The notes under the pieces are model-generated. The model did no database searches and was not told where the DNA came from. It was given only the letters and a program-made list of their open reading frames with translations. A stretch of DNA of 27,614 bases from Ectocarpus siliculosus (Eukaryota > Sar > Phaeophyceae > Ectocarpales > Ectocarpaceae), in NCBI GenBank assembly GCA_000310025.1, contig FN648861.1:1-27614 (forward strand), given 5' to 3'. Below are positions 2,127 through 27,614 of the stretch, piece by piece (the first letter of the stretch is position 1; every line of letters begins with the position of its first letter). Both the position numbers and the translations under genes were made by a program.

Positions 2127-2490
2127 GATCCTCTCGCGGGCTCCCTTGCGTGTTGGAAAACCGATCAGCCTCGCAATCGAACCCCGCTTCTCTCGAGCGA
2201 AACCTTAGACTTGATGTAGCTGGCGGATGGGAACTCTTCGAGAGAGACCGCTGTCGCGACGAAGAAGAGGAAAATGAAAAGAGAGCTGGCAGCGGCCGCC
2301 CTCTCCCCTCTCGGCTCATCTGTTCGGTCATAACGCATCGTGTCATATGGAAACCTCATTTTAAGAGGAACTCTGCGCGCCTCTTTTTTCTGTCTTCCTC
2401 CTACCTCGCGCACACCCGAAACATACGCGCTTCCGTCTTTTCTCCGAACTTCCGCACAAAAGACAACTCGCGCGAGACTAAGCTAAAACC
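2127..2490. promoter_or_regulatory. Shared divergent promoter and 5' UTRs of the ferredoxin and SR genes
   Basis: About 365 bp separate the two inferred start codons on opposite strands, so both promoters must overlap here or extend into the other gene. The SR side is pyrimidine-rich (about 2380-2460) and ends in a favourable context, AAAACCATGG. No clear TATA box is seen. A minus-strand upstream ATG (2338) opens a short frame with a hydrophobic stretch that ends before the ferredoxin start. It could be an upstream ORF or an alternative first exon, but its only donor (AAG/GTTTCG) is out of phase with ferredoxin exon 2. Confidence 0.5.
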
Positions 2491-5400
2491 ATGGGAGATG
2501 TGCCCGGAACAAAGGTTTGGGTAGGTAACCTCGGCAGCACGTGCGAGGAGCGTGACCTGAGGGACGAGTTCAGCAAGTTCGGAGAACTCAACAAGGTGAT
2601 TGATTTTGGTTTTTGGTCCCCGGCCACACGCCACGAAACTCCCGCATTCAGGTAGGAGGGAGATAGCCGAGACGTGGATGAATTGGGCAACCGTCAAGCT
2701 TGCTGCACAGAGTCCGCGGAGGAAGATCTGCGTGCGCGTGGAGGGATTGTAGTCCTTATGGGCGTCTTGGTGTTGGATTTTTCTTGTCAGGACGGGTGGC
2801 TCATCTTGCGCCCAGCCTACAAGAGGTCCGCTTTCCCCCCCCGATCTTGGCACGAAATAACCCGAACTATGTAGGTCCCTCGCAGCACGCATCCCTTCGA
2901 ATTGTGGTGTGTAAGAGCAGCGCTAGCGTTCCCCAACTCATTGTTTCTGCCCTGCCCCCTCTTGTGGCCTCGTCTCCTGTATCATCGATTTTGGCGCCCT
3001 TGGTCGCAATTTCGTCATCTGTCTTTTTTCTTTTTTTTCCCGGGTGTTTCGACCGCTATGAAAAAAAAGCCAGCCAACCTCTGTGTTTAACCCTTGGTTG
3101 CACAACATGTTCCCCTTCTCCGCTGTCGGCCCTGCCGGGTGTCGAAATGTGTAGTAGTAGGTGTGCTATAAAGGTGATCTTTAATGAATCTTGTCCGCTT
3201 GCGCAGGTGTGGGTTGCGCGTAACCCTCCGGGCTTTGCTTTCGTTTGGTTTGCCGACGACCGAGATGCCACTGACGCCGTTCGTGAGATCGACGGGAGAA
3301 GCATCGCCGGGCGGGAGTGGCGCGTTGAGATCGTAAGTAGAGAACAACCTCCTGCCTCAATTCAACCATGCGAAAAACGAACCTCAAGACCCCATGCCTG
3401 TTGTCCTCGGTGTTCGTTTGTCCTGGTGGTGGCTGTTTTGCCTTTGTTATGGGCGGCACGCCACCACCGCTGCCGTTGTTGTCTCTCGTGCTCTTCGCGT
3501 TCGTTGTTGTGGCGTGCGTGTTTTTTGCACTCCGAACTACTTCTATAATACACGCCAAATTTAGGTGTGGGTCGCCCGCAACCCACCGGGCTTCGCGTTC
3601 GTCTGGTTCGCTGACGACAGAGACGCCGGTGATGCCGTTAGGGAGATCGACGGCAAGAGCATCGCCGGTCGCGAGTGGCGTGTGGAAGTCGTGAGTTGTC
3701 TTGCTCCCCTGTTGCTTCATTTTGATTGGATGCAAACTTCTACTACTGCTGTACCACATGCGACCCCCCCCCCGACCCCCACCTCGGTCTTCGGAATGTG
3801 TGTCTTGAACGTGCTGTTTTTTGACGGGGTGGATTTTGCTGCTGTTTTCCTTCTTCCACCTCTGCTACGGTGTGTACGGTCGACAGTCTCACCAAAGAGG
3901 CCGCGACCGCGGGCCGCCCGGGGGCGGATACGGAGGCGGCGGCGGCGGCGGTGGTTACGGGGGTGGAGGCGGAGGCGGCGGCGGGTACGGCGCTCCCCGC
4001 GTCGGCGGCGCCGCGCCCCGCACCGGCTACAAGGTCCGCATCACCGGCCTACCTGAGGGCATGCGCTGGTCCGAGCTGAAGGACTTCGTGCGCAAGGCGG
4101 GGGACGTGACTTACGCTGACGTCCGGGGCGACGAAGGGTACGTCCGTCCGTCGTGTTTTCGTTGTGTTTTCTCAAGCTATCTCGAGTGTTGTTGTAACCC
4201 GTGTGCGTTTTCTGTCGAAAGTGGGTCTCGATTAACTGTCCTTTGCCTGAAGGTTGTCGACGGCTGCGCGCGCTTTAGAAAACCGCCGCCGACGAGGTCG
4301 GTCCGGCTAAGCTGAGAAAACTTTCGCGTTCTTTTTTCGTGTGGTGGTGTGATCACACGAACTTGCGTGCCCGCCCATGCCTAACCTAACCATCCCTTTT
4401 TGCGATGTCGACGCGGACGACGGGGCGCAACGCGATGGAGTGGGAAAGGGGGGGGGGGGGTGCTTTTTCCACAGTATAGCTGTCTCTACAAAGAAACCAG
4501 CCGGCAGGGCTGCGCGCCAAAATTATATTCGACCGCTCCAAACTACGCTACCATCCCTTTGGGGCCTTGTTGTGTCGAGAAGCGCGGCAATGGCACAGTT
4601 GGTGCTTTTCTACGTGGGCGTGTTGTTGTAGTGGTTGTACGCGTGCCACCACCGGCATGTTCTTCCCGACGGTCGTGCGGACGTCTAGTAGTTGTAGGCG
4701 CTGACTGCAATCAACGTTACGGTGGCGCGCGCGGGATAAAGCGGGGTTGAGGATCTACAGCAATCTTCCCAACGTTCCTTCCGCAAAGACGATTTTGTTC
4801 ATGGTGGGAGATGGGCTGGTCCTGGTGCAAACCAAAGTTTCACCCTCTCCGGGGGGGGTCAACCACCACCTAGGTTCTACAGCTTTTTCGACTTTCGACC
4901 AACCGCTGCCGCCCTTTCGAGCATCCGAGAGACAAGAGAAAGAGGGGGGGGTTCTTGCATCCAGCCGCCACCGTGGCTACGTCACGTCGCGTCGCTTCAC
5001 TTGTACAGCTGCGCTACCGTGCATCTCCTCTACTCTCTACACTACTGCGCTACGTCAACTTTCGGCAACCTCGCCTCCACCAACAACCCCAACATGATGA
5101 CTGCCACGCGACAACACGTACGTCGCCATGACCCCAACGACAAGAACAACAAGTGCTTTCTGCTGGTTCCCCATCTGGCTTTCAACCACCATCGCACCTT
5201 GGCTGCCAACAGCAACAACTCGCTCCTCGCCGCAGTATGCCATGGACACATCGGTACCGTGCTTTTTGCACAACACCCTGCTTAGCGTTATAGATGATGC
5301 GTGAAGCAGTCGGGTCTTGACACCAATAATTTGTTTTCAATAATTTGTTTTCTCTAGTGTCGAGAATCCGCGTTATGGTTGGACTCACGCTGTAGGCGAT

Positions 5401-6300
5401 TGATTACTCGTAGAGGGCGTATCCATAGCCCCTCCGTGAAACCTCTATGGTAGTGCTGCTCTGTTTTCCGGTGAGTGCTTGGTACTGTTGTTGTTGAGAG
5501 GCCGCTGTGGGGGTGGGTTCACCTTCAGCGTTTTCGGTTTCTCACGTGTTTGTGCGCGCCTCTTCCTTCTTCCGTCTTCCTGCCTGCCTGGGTCCGGCGA
5601 TCCCGTGTCTTGTCCTTCCGTTCCCCGTTTGCTGCTTTGTTGTCGTGGTGTGTTGTGCGTGTTTCTTGTGTCTTTTTTTCTGTTTGCCGTGGTGGGTTCG
5701 GCGACCCGCAGTGTCGCTGAGTTTTCCAACCGCGACGACATGTCGAGGGCCGTGAGGGAGCTGGACGACACCTACTTCGCGGACAGGCGCATCCGCGTGG
5801 ACTACGTGAGTGCTTTCGTGTATAGTGTAGCTCGTGTTGTGTGTCGTCGTCTTGTATTGGCGCTCGCCTAGGTGATGCACGTATCCACATCCCGTGGAGT
5901 GTGTTCCACATAACATATGCATTACGTGTTAACATGAACGGCACTTCGTTCTTCACCATGAACCATGAAGTATTAATATGTGCCCTGATCCGGCCTGTGG
6001 AAGAGGGAAACCCGGTTTCTACCACCGAGCACAGCGTGCCAAATGCCATTCCTGTCATCACCGCACGCCACCAGTGTTAACACCCACCCGTCCGATCGTG
6101 ACCCTTTTGTTGTTTGTTTCTTCTCCCAGGACGATGGAGGCAGCGGCCGCGGCCGTTCCCGCTCTCCCGCCAGGCGCCGCTCCCGCAGCCCTCCCCCCCG
6201 CCGCGGAAGCCCCCCCCGCGGCAGGTCTCGCTCCCCTCCCGGCCGCGGCAGGAGCCCCTACGGCCGCAGCCGCAGCCGCAGCCCCATTCGCGACAGGTGA
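2491..6300 (+). CDS. SRSF1/SF2-type serine/arginine-rich splicing factor
   Basis: Exons: 2491-2595, then 3207-3332 or 3565-3690 (duplicate pair), 3887-4137, 5712-5805, 6130-6300. With one copy of the pair the protein is 248 residues. RRM1 (about 8-77) has RNP2 VWVGNL (9-14) and an RNP1 region [11 protein letters not shown] (40-50), like SRSF3/SRSF7. A Gly/Tyr-rich hinge (78-117) links to a pseudo-RRM2 (about 124-192) with WSELKD (138-143), the counterpart of the SRSF1 SWQDLKD signature, then GDVTYADV and VAEF. Residues 193-248 are an RS tail rich in RSRSP and RRRSRSP. Family role: nuclear binding of exonic enhancers, recruitment of U1 snRNP and U2AF, and control of alternative splicing. The order RRM, Gly hinge, pseudo-RRM and RS is that of SRSF1. 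The stop codon sits inside a consensus donor (CAG/GTGAAC), so an alternative last intron is possible. Confidence 0.93.
3207..3332 (+). other. SR gene exon 2a: first copy of the duplicated RRM1 half
   Basis: A 126-nt exon, phase 0 at both ends, preceded by CTTGCGCAG and followed by GTAAGT. It encodes 42 residues from [10 protein letters not shown] to EWRVEI, covering the RNP1 strand, helix 2 and the last strand of RRM1. It is one of two near-identical peptides in tandem. Using it alone joins exon 1 to exon 3 in frame. Confidence 0.9.
3565..3690 (+). other. SR gene exon 2b: second copy of the duplicated RRM1 half
   Basis: Also 126 nt and phase 0 at both ends, preceded by CAAATTTAG and followed by GTGAGT. 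Compared with 2a the peptide differs at three positions (T to G, R to K, I to V), yet 25 of 126 nucleotides in 22 of 42 codons differ, almost all silently. Both copies keep intact splice sites and no stop. The 232-nt intron between them shows no obvious residual similarity to the upstream intron, so the duplication is old. Mutually exclusive use is likely; including both would also keep frame. Confidence 0.9.
4138..5711 (+). other. Long SR intron (1,574 nt) between the two halves of RRM2
   Basis: The intron splits the RRM2 codon Gly161 (donor GG/GTACGT, acceptor CCGCAG/T). It holds a G run at about 4449-4460, C/T-rich low complexity at about 4900-5100, and a short tandem copy of AATAATTTGTTTTC at about 5325-5352. 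No further exon was recognised. A poison exon, as SR genes often have in long introns, cannot be excluded without RNA data. Confidence 0.5.
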
Positions 6301-8350
6301 ACGAATTTTGTGGTGAAGAAGCTCGAGGCTCGTTGTGTTAGATGTGCTGGCGACGCAAATGTGGCCGTCGAGAGAGATGGAGATCGTTGGCGTTGTGTAC
6401 GTCTCCAGCCTTGAGAGCAGCTGAAGCTCTTTTTTTCCTCAGGCTCGGTCGTGGTTGTCATCCCGTGTACTGGAGTCGAGAGTGCACTGCTGAGTGGGAG
6501 ATTGCCCGAAACTGACGCAAATGTTTTGACCCGTGATCATTCTCGACCCGCCCGCCTCCCGTTCCCAGGTACTGATCGACAAGACTCAAGGCTCACAGTG
6601 TGCCGGTCAATCACGGGGTCGTTTTTTTGTCGTGTCATGGCTACGGGTAGGGCAGGAGTGTTGGGAAGTGTTGACATTTGTGTTTCGTGCTGTCGCGAAG
6701 AAAACTTGGGCTAGACGGCCGATTTGCTGGCTGACTCATGTTGCATGGTACTGACCTGCTGGTGTTGTATATGTGGACGTTGCGTCAAGTTTTCTTTGTT
6801 TCGTTTGCTCATTGAACGGCCGCACACACCAAAATGCGCAGGGGTGTTGTGTACGGGTTAAGATAGAAAAGGGGTGTGGCTGGTCGCACGCTCTGGCTCT
6901 CACCCGTACACCGACACATTTTCCGCAAGTGGGTCAAAGCTGGACTTGAGTTATTTAGTTGTCGTTGTGCGTCTGCCGCGTCGTGCGCGGTGTGCATACC
7001 CGTGCTTGATGCCGACCGACCGGTAGCGACTTTCCAACATCATGACACGAAGTTGGCTCGGGCAAGAGCTGGGAGGCCGTGCGTGCGGCTTTTGAGATAT
7101 GTTTTCCCTGCGAGCTGAGCGGTTTAAAGAGACGCGCCGAATTCTTGACCGATTCGCGAAGGTTTTCTGTTCTTTCAGGTACCTCAAGAGTCGGCCACTT
7201 TAGGGCGCCCGGCCGTTCCGCTTCGTTTAGATGTCTCTTCCATTTCGAAGCGTGATGATCCTTTGAAGTGCCACGCGCTGTAATTGTAGCGTAGGAGTTG
7301 TTCAAATTTCTTCATGCACGCGCAAGATTTACGGACTCGGTGCCCTGCTTGACTCGCGAAGTGTGATGCCTGGGCTACCAGTGCTCCGTTATTTCATTTC
7401 TGTGTTGGTAGATGGTCGTTTACGCCTGACTCTCGATTCCCAGGGGTATTGGTCTTTTGGTTGATTGGTTGTGCGTGCGCGCAGAGACCGGCCAGTCTCT
7501 TCGATGCTTGCGGGTATGGATGTTTTCATCTTTCTTGTGTACGCGCACGGACAGGCTGCTGCTGACTGCTGCTGACCGACCAACTGCTGTTACTGTAATA
7601 TACTTGAAATATATCGTTCAAGTAGTGGTTCGAGCGACCAGGTTATCAAGCATTGCTTGGAACGTTCTTTGGAAGTACACTCCCTCGCGTCATACCGTCG
7701 TGGGTACCTTTGGCTACACGGCGGTATCGCCGAACCGGTATGGCGGGAAATACATGGTATACCCCCCAGCAGGTCGCTCCTTTCGTTGGTTTCTGCGCAT
7801 TTGCGTGCGACTTGAAACCCATCAAAGTACCTGGGGAACACACAAAAATGTACCGCTTTTCGATGACACGATCGTAGGAGATCGGTGAATCCGAGAGCGG
7901 CGAACTAGTGGCTCTATGTATCCGTTGTCTGTCTCCGCCTTTTCAGGTCCCGCTCAGCTCTGGGGTTCCTTGTTTGATGTCTACGCATGGAAACCGTTCC
8001 GATCTCTGCTCAAAACATTTTTACATCCGTACCCGTCCCTCTGACCAGACGCCTTCCGTGGTCACGGGCCAACTTTTACCCAAAAATAAGGGTACCGAAC
8101 TTGTACGGATGGCCAAGAAACAAAGATACTGACTCACCAAGACATCAGCGGGGCTAAATACGTGCACTTCGTAGGTGGTGCGGGCTTCCGTAAGAGGACG
8201 GCGTTGTCGCGTACTCTTATGTCTCGCCCTACTTGATGGTGACTGCGCTGTTTGCAGCAACACGATGAGCAGACACCGGTGTTTACCACCCAATAAAAAC
8301 CCCATCCTGAATGCCCTCACTTTCGGGGCAACGCGAGGGAGGCGAATAGT
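6301..8350. other. Convergent intergenic region between the SR and hydroxylase genes; no supported gene
   Basis: This holds the 3' UTRs of both flanking genes. Acceptor-like CTCAG (6439) and CCCAG (6569) follow the SR stop and could serve an alternative 3' exon. At about 7590-7890 three frames on both strands stay open for 65-140 codons, but none gives a recognisable domain or clean splice structure. A small hairpin (ACTTGAA/TTCAAGT) lies near 7601-7622. I see no tRNA, snRNA or clear polyadenylation motif. Confidence 0.4.
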
Positions 8351-10358: not shown

Positions 10359-10593
10359 ACTGCTGTAGAAGTAGCCGTGCCAAATATATCCCACGATCGA
10401 TCGTGAAGTCGGGGCACAATCCAAGAGCGACGTTTGGTTTCCCCACATCGATTCGACCCATGCAGCTCAAAGAGGCCACCTAAAAAAAAACGCTTTCCAT
10501 GCTTCAGTCGATGATCCGTTGCCGAAGCAGTCAATAAATACAGAATGCCGCCAAGCAATCAGCACGCGAAGCGTCGCCACAGCAGTTGAAGTA

Positions 10594-10810
10594 CCGTATA
10601 TGACACAAGATAACACACCCCCTGGGCCGATTTTCAAAGCTCGATTTCTCAACAGCAGGAAAAGTCACAGCGCCGAAAACGGCGGCGTTGGAACCGTCTC
10701 GTCGAGAGGTTTTCGAAAATGTATTGTTTCGTTTATGCATCCTCTTCGTCGTGGAGTAATCGAGCTTTGAAAATCGGTCCAGGGGGTGTGTTATCTTGTG
10801 TCATATACGG
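10594..10810. mobile_element. 217-bp MITE with 51-bp terminal inverted repeats and TA target duplication
   Basis: Left arm 10594-10644 and right arm 10760-10810 are inverted copies with one mismatch in 51, starting CCGTATATGACACAAGATAA. The dinucleotide TA flanks both ends (10592-10593 and 10811-10812), as expected for Tc1/mariner-type insertion. The 115-bp core has no coding potential, so the element is non-autonomous. It sits in the divergent promoter region between the hydroxylase and proteasome-activator genes. The near-identical arms suggest a fairly recent insertion. Confidence 0.88.
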
Positions 10811-10812
10811 TA

Positions 10813-11659: not shown

Positions 11660-14600
11660 ATGAGCTCGTTGACAGCGATCAGTGTCAGAGAGGGAGAGGT
11701 AGCCCTCGCAAACCTGCCCGAGCAAGTTGGAAAAATGCAAGCTCTCTTGGAGGCAGAGTTCGCGTACACAAGCCTGGCGGACATCGAAAGGTGAGCATAC
11801 ACACACGCACACGCCAGGCACCGATGACGAACGGCGCCGAAGGTCTCTTGCGTGTCTTGTTATAGGAAACGAGGTATGCATGTTTGGCGGTCTGTTGGTC
11901 TAGATCATCAGACAAGCAGCTACCCAGCTGCATGCTATTCTGAGGGTTCTTTGTCGCTCGGATGGCGTTCGGCAGAAGAAGATGAGGAGGGAAGGGGGTG
12001 CAACGCGAACGCAAGGATAGACGACGATAATCCCCGGGGCCGTGACGATCCACGGAGGAAGGGTTCGCTTCGTCAGGGAAGGATGTCACTCTGTTCTCGG
12101 CGTGTATTTGGCGGTTCATCTGCAGAAATCCTTAGCAGCAATATCCTATGCAAGACCACTGGGTTGTTGGGAAGGATCCACGGTTAGCTTTTGCGCAGCA
12201 GTGTTTCTTTTCATGGCAATCGACAGCGGGTGCTCCATGTGCGCTGGGGTGTAGCCGATCATGCCCTTTGTCGCAAGGGCAGCGACGACAGCACAGACTC
12301 ACCTGCGATTAATTGCTGTTAGTGGCTGGGACGTCCGATACGTACGTGGTGCACAGCATCAGGTGTGGCTGGTCTGTTGGCTTCCTCAGAATTCTCCAGT
12401 CTGGAGCACATTTACATGATGTCCGAACTCTCAAGAGCGCGTGGTTCTGCACAGGATCCCGGATCCGGGTGCAAGGCTTTACGGGTTCTTTTTTTGCCCT
12501 CCTTCCTAACGAACGACTCTGTCGTTTGTTTCAAGCTTCGATTTCAGTTGCCGGCTCACCTTATGTCGTGGCGAAGGCGCACCTCTCTAACTGCTGTGAA
12601 TTCTTCAATGTTCTTCCAGGCTACAATCAAAATACAGCACGCCGTCACAACAGGTTCGCATCAACCAGCTCACCAACAGGAATACCAGCGTTGTTGTTCC
12701 CTCGTAGTGAATGCTTGGCGCGCGGTAAAGCAGAAGCAACAGCAACAGCAGTGCCAAAAGGCCGCGTCGATATTAAAGCCAAATCCATAATCCCTCATCG
12801 GAACCATCTCAACGCTTGATTCGACCCCTCTTTACTGCACTACTGTACCCCGATCCTTTTCGCGCTTCGCCCTTCACGCGACAACGACAACGATAATTTC
12901 TCACAACTATTCATACCTTCGTCGGGCGAAACAACACCAGCGGGTTCAAGCAACTCCTAACCAGCTCGGGGGGAAGCGCAACCGAGAATGCGAACATGGG
13001 GGCTCTGCTGTCCACCGTCAGGTGCGTGGGTATCTGATTTAGCAAAGAGTGCTTCGTAGTGTAGTTGACCAAGCCAACCGCCCGACGAATGTAAGGACAC
13101 CAATAATTTTTGGCGGAAGAACACCACAAATTTGAACCCGCGGTATATACATCCCGTGGGGGTCCGCAGAAGGCTGACGAGGGGGGTAGAAGTGTGTGTA
13201 TTGTGTGCAGAAGGATGGCTCGAGCGCCAGAAAGTGAGTCAGCGTTGGACCCGGATCCCGGAAGGAATGCGTGCGTGTACGCACACTCGTCTACTATCCC
13301 AAAGCTGAAACAAGTGCGGAACCCCGCCTCCTCAAAGCACGCAACGGCCTCTTTGCTGCTCTATCGTTTCTAGGAACGAGGTGACCCAGACCATGAGCAT
13401 CCTTCTGGCCCTCAAGAGATGGATCCGGGTGCAGGTGCCCAAGATCGAGGACGGCAACAACTTCGGCGTCAGCGTGCAGCTCGACGTCGCCAAGGTACGG
13501 TGGGAGTCACTATTACACATGTCGACAGATGCATACTAGCAGCGCAATAAAGAACAGCACGTCGAATACCATGTTCGATAGGCTGGTCCCATCTTAGGAC
13601 ATCCCGTTATGCGGGGGGGGGGGCGGGGGGGATGAAGGAGCCCCAGTGTTGCATAGAGCATGAGATGCCGGACATCTTGATCAGCAGCACCGTGCCTTTG
13701 TGGGTGTCGCGTGAAACCGATGAACTTGACTCTTCTCGCAACAAACTCTAAATATTATTTTCTTTTTCGCGCGTGGCCGCGCCGGACTATTACGGCACAT
13801 GATGAATTCTGGTGGTGTTTCCCTTTTCTTTTCACGTCTGTTCAGCGTGTCAGGAAACGGCAACGGCATCTCCCCAACGTAGTGTATAGGGAACCTCGCT
13901 GTTTCTTGTAGACATGGCTGCCGTGTCTTCCCCGCACCTCTCCCGTGTACTGTTAGCCCTCGAGATTACACCGCTACCGACCAGAAAAAAACGAAGTAAC
14001 GACCACCCCGAAAAAATATTTTTCCTTTCCTAACTCAGCGGTCGAATTGTTTTTTTAGACCGGAAATAGGGCGCAAGTACTACTCCAGGTGGAGAGTTGA
14101 CTCTTCACACTCTGTGACACTTGTCAATAGACCATACGCTATGAATCAACAGGACCACATCTTTTCTCTCCGCACTCTGGAAGGGTGTGAACAGAGTTTT
14201 TTTTTTTTGTGCTTTTGCCTGTTGCTCCATTTTCTCCCTTGAACTAAAGAATCTGATCCGGTTGATTCGATAACTTTTGTTCCTGCGCCCACAACGCAAA
14301 AACCCGCACCCGGATCCAAGGTGTTCCTATTGAGGGGCACTTGCGTCCGTATGAGCTCTCATGGGCAAGAGTTGAGGGGTGGTGATCACCCAAAGAAATC
14401 ATCCGAAAAAAACAGAGCGTGTTTTATTTTCAAGAGTTCTTTATTTAGTTCACGGTGTCGTTTTCGAGTTCACCGGGGACACGATTGGACATGCGCACGA
14501 ACGCTCTCGAGGACAACGACTACCCTACCTTGAAGCTAGAGCGCGAAGCCCATGCTCAGAGACGGAAAGGGCAGCCGTGGCGAAGCGGTTTCGAAATTCG

Positions 14601-17600
14601 TTGCTTGACCGGGGGCACATGACGCACATCTTGAAAATCCAAAAAATAGAAATGCCGAAACATCACCCATCTTCGTGCTTTGTTTTACATGTGTCTCCCG
14701 CCGTCCATAAGCTGCCAGAGGCGATCTGGGGCACATTCGCCGCTAGCCCTGCTCACGCTGATTCTCGGAAACTCTCAATTTTGCTCGTCCGCGATGAATT
14801 TGTCCCAACATGGGCTTGAGCGTGTTGTTGTGCCAGCAGCAGATTTGGCGTGACTTGATTGAATTTTCATGCTCAAGGCACCAACTCCCTAAAACCCAAA
14901 ACTATAATATATATTGTCTGTTTTTCCTCCTGGAACCAGCTTCACGTCGGGGGAGACTTTCGCCACATGCCAGTCGGGGTCTTGCGCCGGAGGTGGCACC
15001 ATCCTGANNNNNNNNNNNNNNNNNNNNNNNNNNNNNNNNNNNNNNNNNNNNNNNNNNNNNNNNNNNNNNNNNNNNNNNNNNNNNNNNNNNNNNNNNNNNN
15101 NNNNNNNNNNNNNNNNNNNNNNNNNNNNNNNNNNNNNNNNNNNNNNNNNNNNNNNNNNNNNNNNNNNNNNNNNNNNNNNNNNNNNNNNNNNNNNNNNNNN
15201 NNNNNNNNNNNNNNNNNNNNNNNNNNNNNNNNNNNNNNNNNNNNNNNNNNNNNNNNNNNNNNNNNNNNNNNNNNNNNNNNNNNNNNNNNNNGCGGTGTGT
15301 ACATAGTGTAGTTCAACGGTCAAGGAGACAGACACACAGTGCCAGCCGGGATGGTTCCGTGGCAAGTGAAGCACTCGGAGTGAACTTCAGGATGGTGCCA
15401 CCTCCGGCGCAAGACCCCGACTGGCAAGTGGCGAAAGTCTCCCCCGACGTGAAGCTGGTACCAGGAGGAAAAACAGACAATTATGTATGGGGTGTTTGTA
15501 TTTCTATTGATTGAATTATTTGTGTTTTGGGTCCATCTTCCCACTTATGGCACGAGGGTGGCCACGCGTTCGAACCTACCGGGTGTCTCCCAACGTCTCG
15601 GACCACTGCCGAACTTGTATGCTCTCGAGCGGCGGGACTGTGTGGAGAAATGTTTAGTATGCGGTCTCGTGGACGCCCGTGTGAGGTCGCAATATGGTAT
15701 TTTCGGAACTATTTGTGAGAATTATCATGAGAACGGAACGGTTTTTCATGTGAAGACATTAACAATTATGTGGTCCCGTGGCATGGCGTGTGATGGTTGT
15801 GATGTATGATGTGGTCTCGCGTGCGCCTCGGTGTGATGTGGTCGCGCGAGCGGCAGGCGGGACTGTCACATTTGACGGATAGGGGAACGTGCGTACGTGC
15901 GTACAAACCTGCATCTTACACCAGTCTGCAGGGAAAATATTGGAACTTTTGATATGTTATGCGGTACCAACCATCGTACTGTATCAGGAAACCAGAGCCC
16001 AATTGCGATCTTCTACACAAACTGCAAGACAAAAATTACAATTTCCGGGCACGTTCGGGCAATATATATATATCAAGCTTTTTCGAAAATACGCTCGCGT
16101 GTGTTTTTAAGACCAATTCATCGAGGGCGAGAAAAGTTGAGAGCTTCCGAGAATCAATGCGATCAGGGCTGGTGGCGCATGTGCTCAGGATCGCCTGTTG
16201 CAGCTTGTGGGAGGCGGCAGGACGGACAGAAACAACGCCCAAGACCGGCCTTTGTTGACTCAATTTTTTTTTGGTCTAATTTTCCTCCGCTCTCATATGC
16301 TTTGTTTGTTACGTTCCGACTCTCTGGTGCTGCTGTGAGCAGCACAAATGTATTCGCTGCTGCTCCAACCGGTGGGCTATACTAGTGCTCCCGATCCGCC
16401 AGCGTAGTGCACACGATCCTTCGCTAGGGTCCGGTGGCTGTGTGCGTTGCGTGTCGTGCGCTTCGTACACCGTGGTGTTGCTGACAAATGTAGGCGTGTT
16501 TCGCACATATTCGTGACGTAGGCGACTAGTTCCGGGGGCGTTGATTGGTTATTTTCACTTGATCTAGTCTGTTGGGCTCACGACCATGAACACGTTCTTG
16601 GCCTAAAAAAGTCGTGCTCTCGAGGTCTAACTGCCGTTCATTCCTAAACGCGTTCGCTTGTTAACGTTCCCTAATCACGAAGGGGATCGACGAGCTCACG
16701 ACTCCCGTGGCGAGCAGCCTCGGAGAGATGCCGGGCTACTTCGAGAGCCGGGCTTCGGCGTGGGACAAGATCGGGAACAAGAAGTCCAAGGAGAGCAAGA
16801 CCTCATCGTCTGCATCCAAGGACACCGGGGGAAAGGCGCGTGTTGTTGTTGTTGTTCTTGTTGTTGTTGTTGTTGCTTGTTGGTTCTTCACATAGAAAAA
16901 CGTTCCGTTCTCTCCACCCAGTACCTTCTTCTGTCCGTACTAATCAAACACTTGACGCGGTCGATTCCCGCGTTCACAGGCTAACATACCCAAAAAAGGT
17001 ACACGTGTGTGTGTGTGACGAAATTTGAGTAAGACTGCTGTTGTCCGTATTGCGTGCGTTTCCGTTCACTAAACGCGGGGTGGTTTGTGATTGAGACCGG
17101 AAACCAACGTGGTATTTCGTATTTCGTATGATATGTTTGTTTTCTTGGTCCCCCGTTCATGCTCGACCGATTCTTTATCTACCGATACACGTGACGAAAG
17201 AAACATTGTGACTCTCCTGTACGTTGTACCTCGCGATACTTTGTGTGCATGAAACAGACTTGGCGTGGACATCACATCCCATCAAGGCCAGACAGTTTTG
17301 GTTTCGACTTGTTTCACGCCTCCCATCTTTCTCTCCCTCTTCATGCGATGAACATTATCTCCCTCTTCAAGCCATGAATATTACGCCTACTGCTGTATTG
17401 TTTCTCCCTCTAGGACGGGGACTCTTCCAAGACCTCCGAGTCCACCAGCACCGAAGAAAAGACTTCCGAATCTTCCTTCGCGCCTGACTCGGCCAACCAC
17501 CTCATCGCCCTCGACGTGAAGTGGTTCGTTTCCCTGCACCACACCCTGCTGAGAGCCAGGGATTCTTTGGTCCTCGCCGCGGACATGATCGAGAAGAACA

Positions 17601-17662
17601 TGGAGAAGCTCTTGCGTCCCAAGGGTACCAACACGCAGGGTGGTGGCATGTACTCGTTCTAA
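11660..17662 (+). CDS. PSME3: Proteasome activator PA28 (11S/REG), gamma-type
   Basis: Six exons (11660-11790, 12400-12468, 12941-13021, 13374-13494, 16683-16835, 17414-17662) give 267 residues; human PSME3 has about 254. Exon 4 carries the family signature PKIEDGNNFGVSVQ (116-129), the activation loop that opens the 20S gate. Residues 95-115 and about 205-257 match the long helices of the four-helix bundle, including VKWFVSLHHTLLRARDSLV and EKNMEKLL. These subunits form a heptameric ATP-independent cap on the 20S core. Instead of the usual helix linker there is a Ser/Thr/Lys/Glu-rich stretch (about 158-205). The C-terminus ends GGMYSF; C-terminal residues of the family dock in alpha-ring pockets. 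The start of exon 3 could alternatively be 12965 in the same phase. The last intron uses a GC donor. Gamma type is chosen by overall similarity; non-vertebrate PA28 proteins are mostly of this kind. Confidence 0.92.
14913..15007 (+). repeat. Inner inverted repeat, left arm, truncated by the gap
   Basis: From TTGTCTGTTTTTCCTCCTGG to CACCATCCTGA; it pairs with 15387-15484 on the minus strand. The right arm continues to about 15292, so the missing part of this arm probably lies inside the N run. Confidence 0.85.
15008..15291. other. Assembly gap (284 N)
   Basis: A run of N between two arms of a near-perfect inverted repeat, a structure that often breaks assembly. The true length is unknown. Confidence 0.99.
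15292..15484 (-). pseudogene. Zinc-finger (possibly LIM) gene fragment in the inner inverted repeat
   Basis: Read on the minus strand, one frame gives TCQSGSCAGGGTILKF and the neighbouring frame gives HSECFTCHGTIPAGTVC. Joined by a one-base shift at about 15380 they resemble part of a LIM-type C-x2-C...H-x2-C-x2-C finger. The pattern lacks some expected cysteines. It looks like a captured exon fragment with a frameshift. The identification is tentative. Confidence 0.3.
16836..17413 (+). other. GC-AG intron of the PA28 gene
   Basis: Exon 5 must end in phase 0 to join exon 6. The boundary with the best donor context is GGAAAG/GCGCGT, a GC donor whose other positions fit GTGCGT-type donors used elsewhere in this gene. 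A GT alternative in phase (CGT/GTTGTT) adds two residues and is a poor consensus. The intron begins with a GTT-repeat tract (about 16841-16875) and ends CTCCCTCTAG. Confidence 0.65.
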
Positions 17663-26743: not shown

Positions 26744-26888
26744 TGCAGGAGATAGATCTCCACCATGGCCGAAACTTATGTACGAGGTCGGCGGTTTTCA
26801 AAGGGTAGACAGCCCCTCGCTGCAGGAGATAGATCCCCACCATGGCCGAAACGTATGTACGACGTCAGCGGTTTTCAAAGGGTAGACA
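26744..26888. repeat. Two tandem copies of a 77-bp unit
   Basis: Copies begin at 26744 and 26821 with TGCAGGAGATAGAT and share GGTTTTCAAAGGGTAGACAG; about five substitutions separate them. Each contains CACCATGGCCGAAAC, an ATG in good context on the plus strand. No gene can be supported from it. Confidence 0.85.
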
Positions 26889-27368
26889 GTAGACAGCCCT
26901 CTCGATGGATGTTGTATCTAATTCTTCTCACAGAAATCAGCCACGTGCTCCTGCATTCCATGACAAGCGCCGCACCGACAGACCTTGCTTTGCTAGGGCA
27001 CAAAAGTGTACCTCTTCCACATGATATGCCATGTGAAAGGTTGGACATTGGACAGGCCGCTGCTAAAGTGGAATCACTCACACGCAGCTTCTCTTGCACG
27101 TTCTTGACGGTCTACGTCGCCGTTGTAGGTCTGTTTCGTCTAGATGACAACACAGGTGACTTTTGTCCGCTATTTTTTTATGAGATCAGTAGGTCCAACA
27201 ATCGAGTCAGCGAATAAAATCTGCCTACCATGTAAAACATATGGTACGCAGCAGGGGCCATTACAACCACCGTTCGCGCAGCCCCCCCCCCCCTGCCCCT
27301 GTTCGCAAAATTTGAATAGGTTGGCGTCGAGTGGCACCGACGCTGTAAAACAAGCCACCAGCCCCTAG
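26889..27368. other. Upstream flank of the Lys/Ala/Pro-rich gene; possible small exon, otherwise nothing assigned
   Basis: The only candidate coding piece is minus 27111-27082, encoding TVKNVQEKLR, bounded by GTAG and a strong GTGAGT donor in phase 0 with exon 26283-26089. Its acceptor has a weak pyrimidine tract. Another acceptor-like GTTTTACAG (minus, about 27343) is followed by an open frame of unclear meaning. Confidence 0.3.
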
Positions 27369-27614
27369 ACATGAAATAATTGCACTAACCAAATTTTTAT
27401 TTTCCCATACCGTAACACAAACCCGCCAAGCCAGACATGAAAGAGCTGAACTAACCGATCTTTTATTTTCCCATACTGTAACACAAACCTGACAAGCCAG
27501 ACATGGAAAAACTGAACTAACCGACTTTTTATTTCCCATACTGTAACACAAACCTGAAAAGCCAGACATGGAAAAACTGAACTAACAGACTTTTTATTTC
27601 CCATACTGTAACAC
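27369..27614. repeat. 66-bp tandem repeat array running off the right edge
   Basis: Units start at 27369, 27435, 27501 and 27566 (periods 66, 66, 65), each beginning ACATG and containing TTTTTATTT(T)CCCATACTGTAACACAA-like sequence. The fourth unit is cut by the window end. Because 66 is a multiple of three, the minus strand stays open as a 22-residue periodic frame, broken by the 65-bp unit. Most likely a minisatellite. Confidence 0.93.

Follow-up and report, generated by a model that had tools for sequence, protein, structure and literature searches.

The window described here, a stretch of 27,614 nucleotides from the brown alga Ectocarpus siliculosus (contig FN648861.1 of GenBank assembly GCA_000310025.1), carries on its + strand, starting at position 2491, a gene for an SR-type splicing factor. 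All positions are those of the window, and the coding exons of the gene, every one on the + strand, are referred to as 1, A, B, 3, 4 and 5. Exon 1 (2491–2595; 35 codons; donor AAG/GTGATT, the slash marking the junction) supplies the start codon and beta1-alpha1 of the first RRM (RRM1). Exons A (3207–3332) and B (3565–3690) follow in tandem as two copies of the beta2–beta4 part of the same domain. Each is 126 nt long and in phase 0, each is preceded by an acceptor AG (gcgcag for A, atttag for B), and the donors that follow are ATC/GTAAGT and GTC/GTGAGT, respectively. The two are separated by intron A–B (3333–3564; 232 nt), and exon B is separated from exon 3 by an intron of 196 nt (3691–3886). 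Exon 3 (3887–4137) encodes a glycine-rich linker and the start of RRM2; exon 4 (5712–5805), beyond intron 3–4 (4138–5711), the remainder of RRM2; and exon 5 (6130–6300), the RS tail and the stop. This stop is itself overlapped by a GT donor (GACAG/GTGAAC; region 6290–7205), and acceptor-like sites just 5' of ~6570 and ~7180 would yield the alternative protein ends RY or RYLKSRPL, each followed by a stop.

Elsewhere in the window, the region 13375–17662 holds a neighbouring + strand gene for a subunit of the proteasome activator PA28, with matches to PF02252 at 13375–13494 and 17414–17659. An inverted repeat at 14913–15481 (95 nt, 98% complementary) flanks a run of Ns and may represent the ends of a mobile element. 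Another, at 10592–10812 (62 nt, 95% complementary), is a short inverted-repeat element with a 70% similar copy on contig C33. Tandem repeats are present at 26744–26889 (77-nt units) and at 27367–27614 (65-nt units), the latter reaching the end of the window.

The SR protein

The original prediction, made from the letters of the DNA alone, was of an SR-type splicing factor, and this is borne out: Pfam finds two RRM_1 stretches in the protein, joined by the glycine-rich linker, and an RS tail ends it. The whole protein scores 97.4 bits with exon A and 96.7 bits with exon B, and RRM1 is complete with either, its best stretch spanning residues 9–73 and covering 1–69 of the 70 profile positions. 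We take exon 1 to contribute beta1-alpha1, and A or B to contribute beta2-beta3-alpha2-beta4, from the RRM fold as it is generally understood and from an alignment with SRSF3. Among solved structures, RRM1 built with B is closest to SRSF3 (among the best 60 of 149 matched sequences), and RRM2 is closest to SR34 and SRSF1 (20 matched). An SRSF3-like RRM1 and an SR34/SRSF1-like RRM2 are thus joined here in one protein, a combination not known to us from other SR proteins. Nor do we know of a duplicated RRM exon in SRSF3 or in SRSF1/SR34.

Divergence of exons A and B

Exons A and B had been described as phase-0 exons for the same 42-residue half of RRM1, with three amino-acid differences against 25 nucleotide differences in 22 codons, and recounting confirms every figure. 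The 25 nucleotide differences fall at first, second and third codon positions in the numbers 4, 2 and 19. Thirty-nine of the 42 residues are identical; the exceptions are T/G at residue 22, R/K at 31 and I/V at 42. Estimates of dN and dS, rough since they come from 42 codons only, are 0.053 and 1.89 by NG86 and 0.065 and 1.33 by LWL85, and dS is saturated by maximum likelihood. When 25 random substitutions were placed in exon A, the 20,000 simulations gave 16.6 amino-acid changes on average and never fewer than 8, so that none had as few as three, and 48% of them gained a stop codon. As no simulation was so conserved while silent sites are saturated, both copies have been selected for protein sequence. 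Long purifying selection on both, which the prediction had also proposed, stands on these results (dN 0.05–0.065, dS >1, 0 of 20,000 neutral simulations).

The limits of the duplication can be seen without a gene model. Repeat detection pairs 3205–3338 with 3563–3696, which is to say the exon plus its AG and GT signals. No significant similarity was found between the flanking introns, either in the 200 nt upstream (p = 0.91) or in the 190 nt downstream, compared without the donor (p = 0.076). Gene conversion can be rejected, by reasoning, as the source of the likeness of A and B, because it would have equalised the silent sites too. The pair is therefore best regarded as an old tandem duplication, its presumed age deriving from the saturated silent divergence. 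Codon usage does not point to either copy as the major one: A has a GC3 of 0.67 and B one of 0.79, against 0.71–0.94 for the other exons.

It might be asked whether one copy is dead, a rarely used relic, or whether the duplication is an artefact of assembly. Exon B does have a weak acceptor, at the 15th percentile of the control introns described below, as a relic might, but a relic would lose its protein sequence, and none of the 20,000 simulations matched the conservation found. An artefact, for its part, would not be expected to differ at 25 sites, and the sole run of Ns seen in the window is at 15008–15291. We regard both possibilities as very improbable.

Relatives in the genome and the literature

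Similarity searches covered a genome of 189,456,909 bases in 492 contigs, among which the window lies on the contig numbered C306. The protein sequence of exon B gave five matches: B itself, A, an SR paralogue on contig C31 (57% identical) and two with E ~0.1. A DNA search with 2491–4140, by a method that skips common words and scores the best candidates only, did not find a second copy of exon A or exon B; its 19 matches were the query itself, one in intron 1 and 17 in the glycine-rich stretch. Pattern searches of viral contigs (12 matches) and of genome contigs (117 matches) gave no relative. Tblastx comparisons within the window and within each of 29 other loci (L008–L036), judged without gene models, gave same-strand pairs in 10 of the 29. 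Five of these loci (L008, L016, L018, L019 and L020) had several pairs, spread over different frames or strands in the manner of DNA repeats, and five (L013, L014, L015, L021 and L025) had a single weak row each, of 22–29 bits.

A piece of intron 1 (2902–3027) has one other copy in the genome, at C33:2833759–2833884, 85% identical over 128 columns. Rfam gave no match to either copy of this piece, and its two matches within 2400–7400, both sub-threshold, lie outside intron 1 and exons A and B.

Among the matches listed in literature searches on tandem exon duplication, SR proteins, and splicing in Ectocarpus and other brown algae, the titles and opening lines of abstracts do not describe the pair. 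Mutually exclusive exons are named in general terms only in the portion of PMC12702839 consulted.

RNA contacts of the two copies

Because the original prediction spoke of two RNA-binding isoforms, the residues that differ between A and B are of particular interest. SRSF3 is reported to contact RNA through Tyr13, Trp40, the main chain of Arg43, Asn44, Phe48, Glu79, Ser81, Asn82 and the backbone of Leu80 (PMC11100773, in part). Exons A and B have the same residues at the equivalents of W40, R43, N44, F48 and E79, and also at that of F50, which we take to be another RNA contact. The equivalent of L80, whose contact is through the backbone, is I in A and V in B, and the remaining two differences correspond to residues 60 and 69 of SRSF3. 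All of the side chains of SRSF3 that are reported to contact RNA and that lie in this exon are, then, the same in both copies, and the notion of two RNA-binding isoforms finds no support. The alpha2-beta4 side of SRSF3 is stated to touch Drosha, and an R69E/R75E mutant of the interface is listed (PMC11100773, in part); with two of the differences at 60 and 69, any difference between the forms is likelier to concern protein contacts than RNA preference. Identity to SRSF3 is 30/42 for A and 29/42 for B, so neither copy looks relaxed.

These findings weigh on the proposal that A and B are mutually exclusive exons which give functionally different RNA-binding isoforms. Both copies have been conserved for long, three residues do differ, and the isoforms of U2AF1, with seven differences, are reported to be non-equivalent in the part of PMC5224494 drawn on here. 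Against this, the equivalents of W40, R43, N44, F48, E79 and F50 are all identical, and T/G, R/K and I/V are the only differences; we think the proposal unlikely. From the likeness to SRSF3, we would expect the two isoforms to share the same RNA sequence preference; any difference between them should be subtle and lie on the alpha2-beta4 face.

One copy or both

Translation of each of the four possible combinations—A only, B only, both and neither—shows that the frame stays open as far as one common stop in every case. It had been claimed that the frame is kept with one, both or neither, so that NMD cannot police the choice, and the translations uphold this: with every combination in frame to one stop, NMD is unable to enforce the choice of exon. 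What argues for one copy at a time is the architecture of the domain. The gene has a single beta1-alpha1, so it is one copy at a time that completes RRM1, and yet A and B are equally conserved. Use of A and B one at a time is, we infer, the likeliest reading.

The same neutrality of frame admits other readings. Were A and B both constitutively included, the protein would comprise RRM1 and a second half-RRM. Each exon has its own GT–AG sites, and Pfam does report two RRM_1 stretches in the start of the both-included protein, but this match does not settle the question. The core of a second half without beta1-alpha1 would be expected to drift, but 39 of 42 residues have stayed the same while the silent sites became saturated, and we find constitutive inclusion of both quite hard to credit. 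A regulated on/off switch is another reading, in which in-frame skipping, or double inclusion, breaks RRM1 and spares RRM2 and the RS region, and so provides a form of autoregulation free of NMD. SR genes often regulate their own splicing, and skipping would indeed keep the frame and leave RRM2 and the RS region intact. Skipping does not, however, need two copies, and to such a switch, too, we attach only a low probability.

Use of one copy per mRNA, to return to the reading that we prefer, can be set out as follows. The beta2-beta3-alpha2-beta4 part of RRM1 would once have been encoded by a single 126-nt exon that was tandemly duplicated long ago, and each mature mRNA would now take either A or B, such that RRM1 is complete either way. 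What selection keeps would be the choice of exon, as a regulatory or output switch, more than any difference between the proteins. The equality of RNA contacts in A and B argues in this direction, and it is probably the choice of exon, rather than a protein difference, that is maintained. A counter-consideration is that exon skipping, according to PMC6142364 (in part), is exceptionally frequent in animals and rarer in other groups, and this tells against exon choice here. Taken together—an old tandem duplication, one copy per mRNA, isoforms equivalent towards RNA, and selection on the choice of exon—this reading is, in our judgement, reasonably probable.

Splice signals

How one copy might exclude the other was approached through the splice sites, which were compared with those of 48 introns in this genome's CCT, myosin and kinesin genes. 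These controls, 26 kept from 44 neighbouring pairs and 22 from another set, were placed by domain matches and GT–AG rules, not by transcripts. Control rows numbered 54 of 59 (all but 5 on C31 and C45), 52 of 96 and 50 of 138, the last two sets being the rows that fall within 20 regions; the row C26:3253395–3254105 was excluded for its five stops. At least one control acceptor looks wrong (a 164-nt intron with an AG-free zone of 3).

Both donors, that of A and that of B, have lower scores than any of the 48 controls. Their intronic parts are perfect and C occupies position −1; the low scores are due to the exonic bases. Of the two acceptors, that of A ranks at the 58th percentile of the controls and that of B, as mentioned, is weak. 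Up to the acceptor of B, intron A–B is free of AG for 176 nt (3389–3564), a length equalled by 2 of the 48 controls and by a fraction of 0.0001 of 20,000 composition shuffles. The intron also has no match to the branch-site consensus yUnAy, as is true of one of the 48 controls and of 0.68% of 5,000 shuffles. The consensus is a weak guide in this genome, since 15 of the 48 controls either lack a yUnAy or have none within 100 nt of the acceptor. Candidate branch sites that match at four of five positions have their adenines at 3359, 3364 and 3386, at distances of 27, 32 and 54 nt from the donor of A. Others are located 115 and 16 nt before the acceptor of B, and the latter, ATAAT at 3548, is a near competitor of the distant ones. 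Two of the distant candidates are 5' of an AG at intron positions 55–56, and the third, at 54 nt, is just beyond a threshold of ~50 nt.

In vertebrate OGDH, the branch points for mutually exclusive exons 4a and 4b lie 25–41 nt from the upstream 5' splice site and are accompanied by a long AG-free zone, an arrangement that enforces the exclusion (PMC7969005, in part). Intron A–B resembles the OGDH intron in its long AG-free, pyrimidine-rich zone and in candidate branch points near the upstream donor. The OGDH branch points were mapped by experiment, however, whereas those of the SR gene are predicted and weaker. AG-free zones just as long occur in the intron between B and exon 3 (191 nt) and in intron 3–4 (183 nt), against a control median of 61; in all, such zones are found in 3 of the gene's 5 introns, versus 2 of 48 controls (Fisher p = 0.004, in a post hoc comparison). 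The feature thus marks the gene and not the pair alone, and the likeness to OGDH, although real, is suggestive rather than decisive of a distant-branch-point mechanism.

If such a mechanism operates, the 3' splice site of exon B, with its weak acceptor, long AG-free zone and want of a consensus branch site, would discourage the joining of A to B. The branch point of exon B would lie so close to the donor of A as to be too near for A-to-B splicing, and it would still be usable from exon 1. Steric exclusion of this kind is the weakest step of our explanation, and we put it forward as a possibility that is on the doubtful side.

Competing RNA structures, in the form of docking and selector pairings between the introns, had been suggested as something to look for. 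Folding lends them no clear support. Ten pairs of segments were examined with 60 shuffles each, and the best, intron 1 with the intron between B and exon 3, reached z = −2.1, the others ranging from −0.7 to +1.1; there is no convincing excess over shuffles. A perfect 11-nt inverted match between 2624–2634 and 3675–3685 is at the level of chance (P = 0.13, 300 shuffles).

Comparison with other duplicated exons

The pair joins the class of tandem duplicated exons, and is closest in spirit to exons 3 and Ab of vertebrate U2AF1. These, too, are tandem exons of equal length that encode part of an RRM-like domain (UHM) of a splicing factor, that differ in few amino acids, and that have been kept through vertebrate evolution (PMC5224494, in part). 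The U2AF1 exons are 67 nt long, and inclusion of both or of neither leads to stop codons and NMD; exons A and B, at 126 nt, are frame-neutral. The U2AF1 exons also differ at seven residues, some in RNP2 (same source, in part), whereas the differences between A and B are three and conservative, and the gene is of the SR family. The isoforms of OGDH, to judge from the part of PMC7969005 drawn on, differ in their response to calcium.

Closer to home, the ROCO genes of brown algae contain in-phase tandem copies of LRR exons that are alternatively spliced. Those copies are numerous 72-bp repeat exons in phase 2, under diversifying selection, in candidate immune receptors (PMC11378527, in part). Exons A and B, in contrast, are just two in number, belong to the gene of a splicing factor and have been under purifying selection.

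Significance

A wider proposal can be made, to which we give a fairly low chance, and which is best read as speculation. It is that a non-animal SR gene, independently of vertebrate U2AF1, has long kept protein-equivalent halves of an RRM on separate exons, and that the choice between them is itself the regulated output, enforced through the geometry of the splice sites rather than through NMD or a difference between the proteins. Such an output might be, for example, control of the level or stage of a splicing factor that reads its own activity.

Should RNA show constitutive use of one copy, the case would be an ordinary one. If one-at-a-time use is confirmed, a U2AF1-like device built from near-identical halves of an RNA-binding domain would have evolved in another gene family, and probably in another lineage. 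The pair would also bear on whether steric exclusion works outside vertebrates. And since equal RNA binding is expected of the two forms and the choice between them is neutral for the reading frame, exons A and B would offer a clean case for asking why near-equivalent exon duplicates persist.
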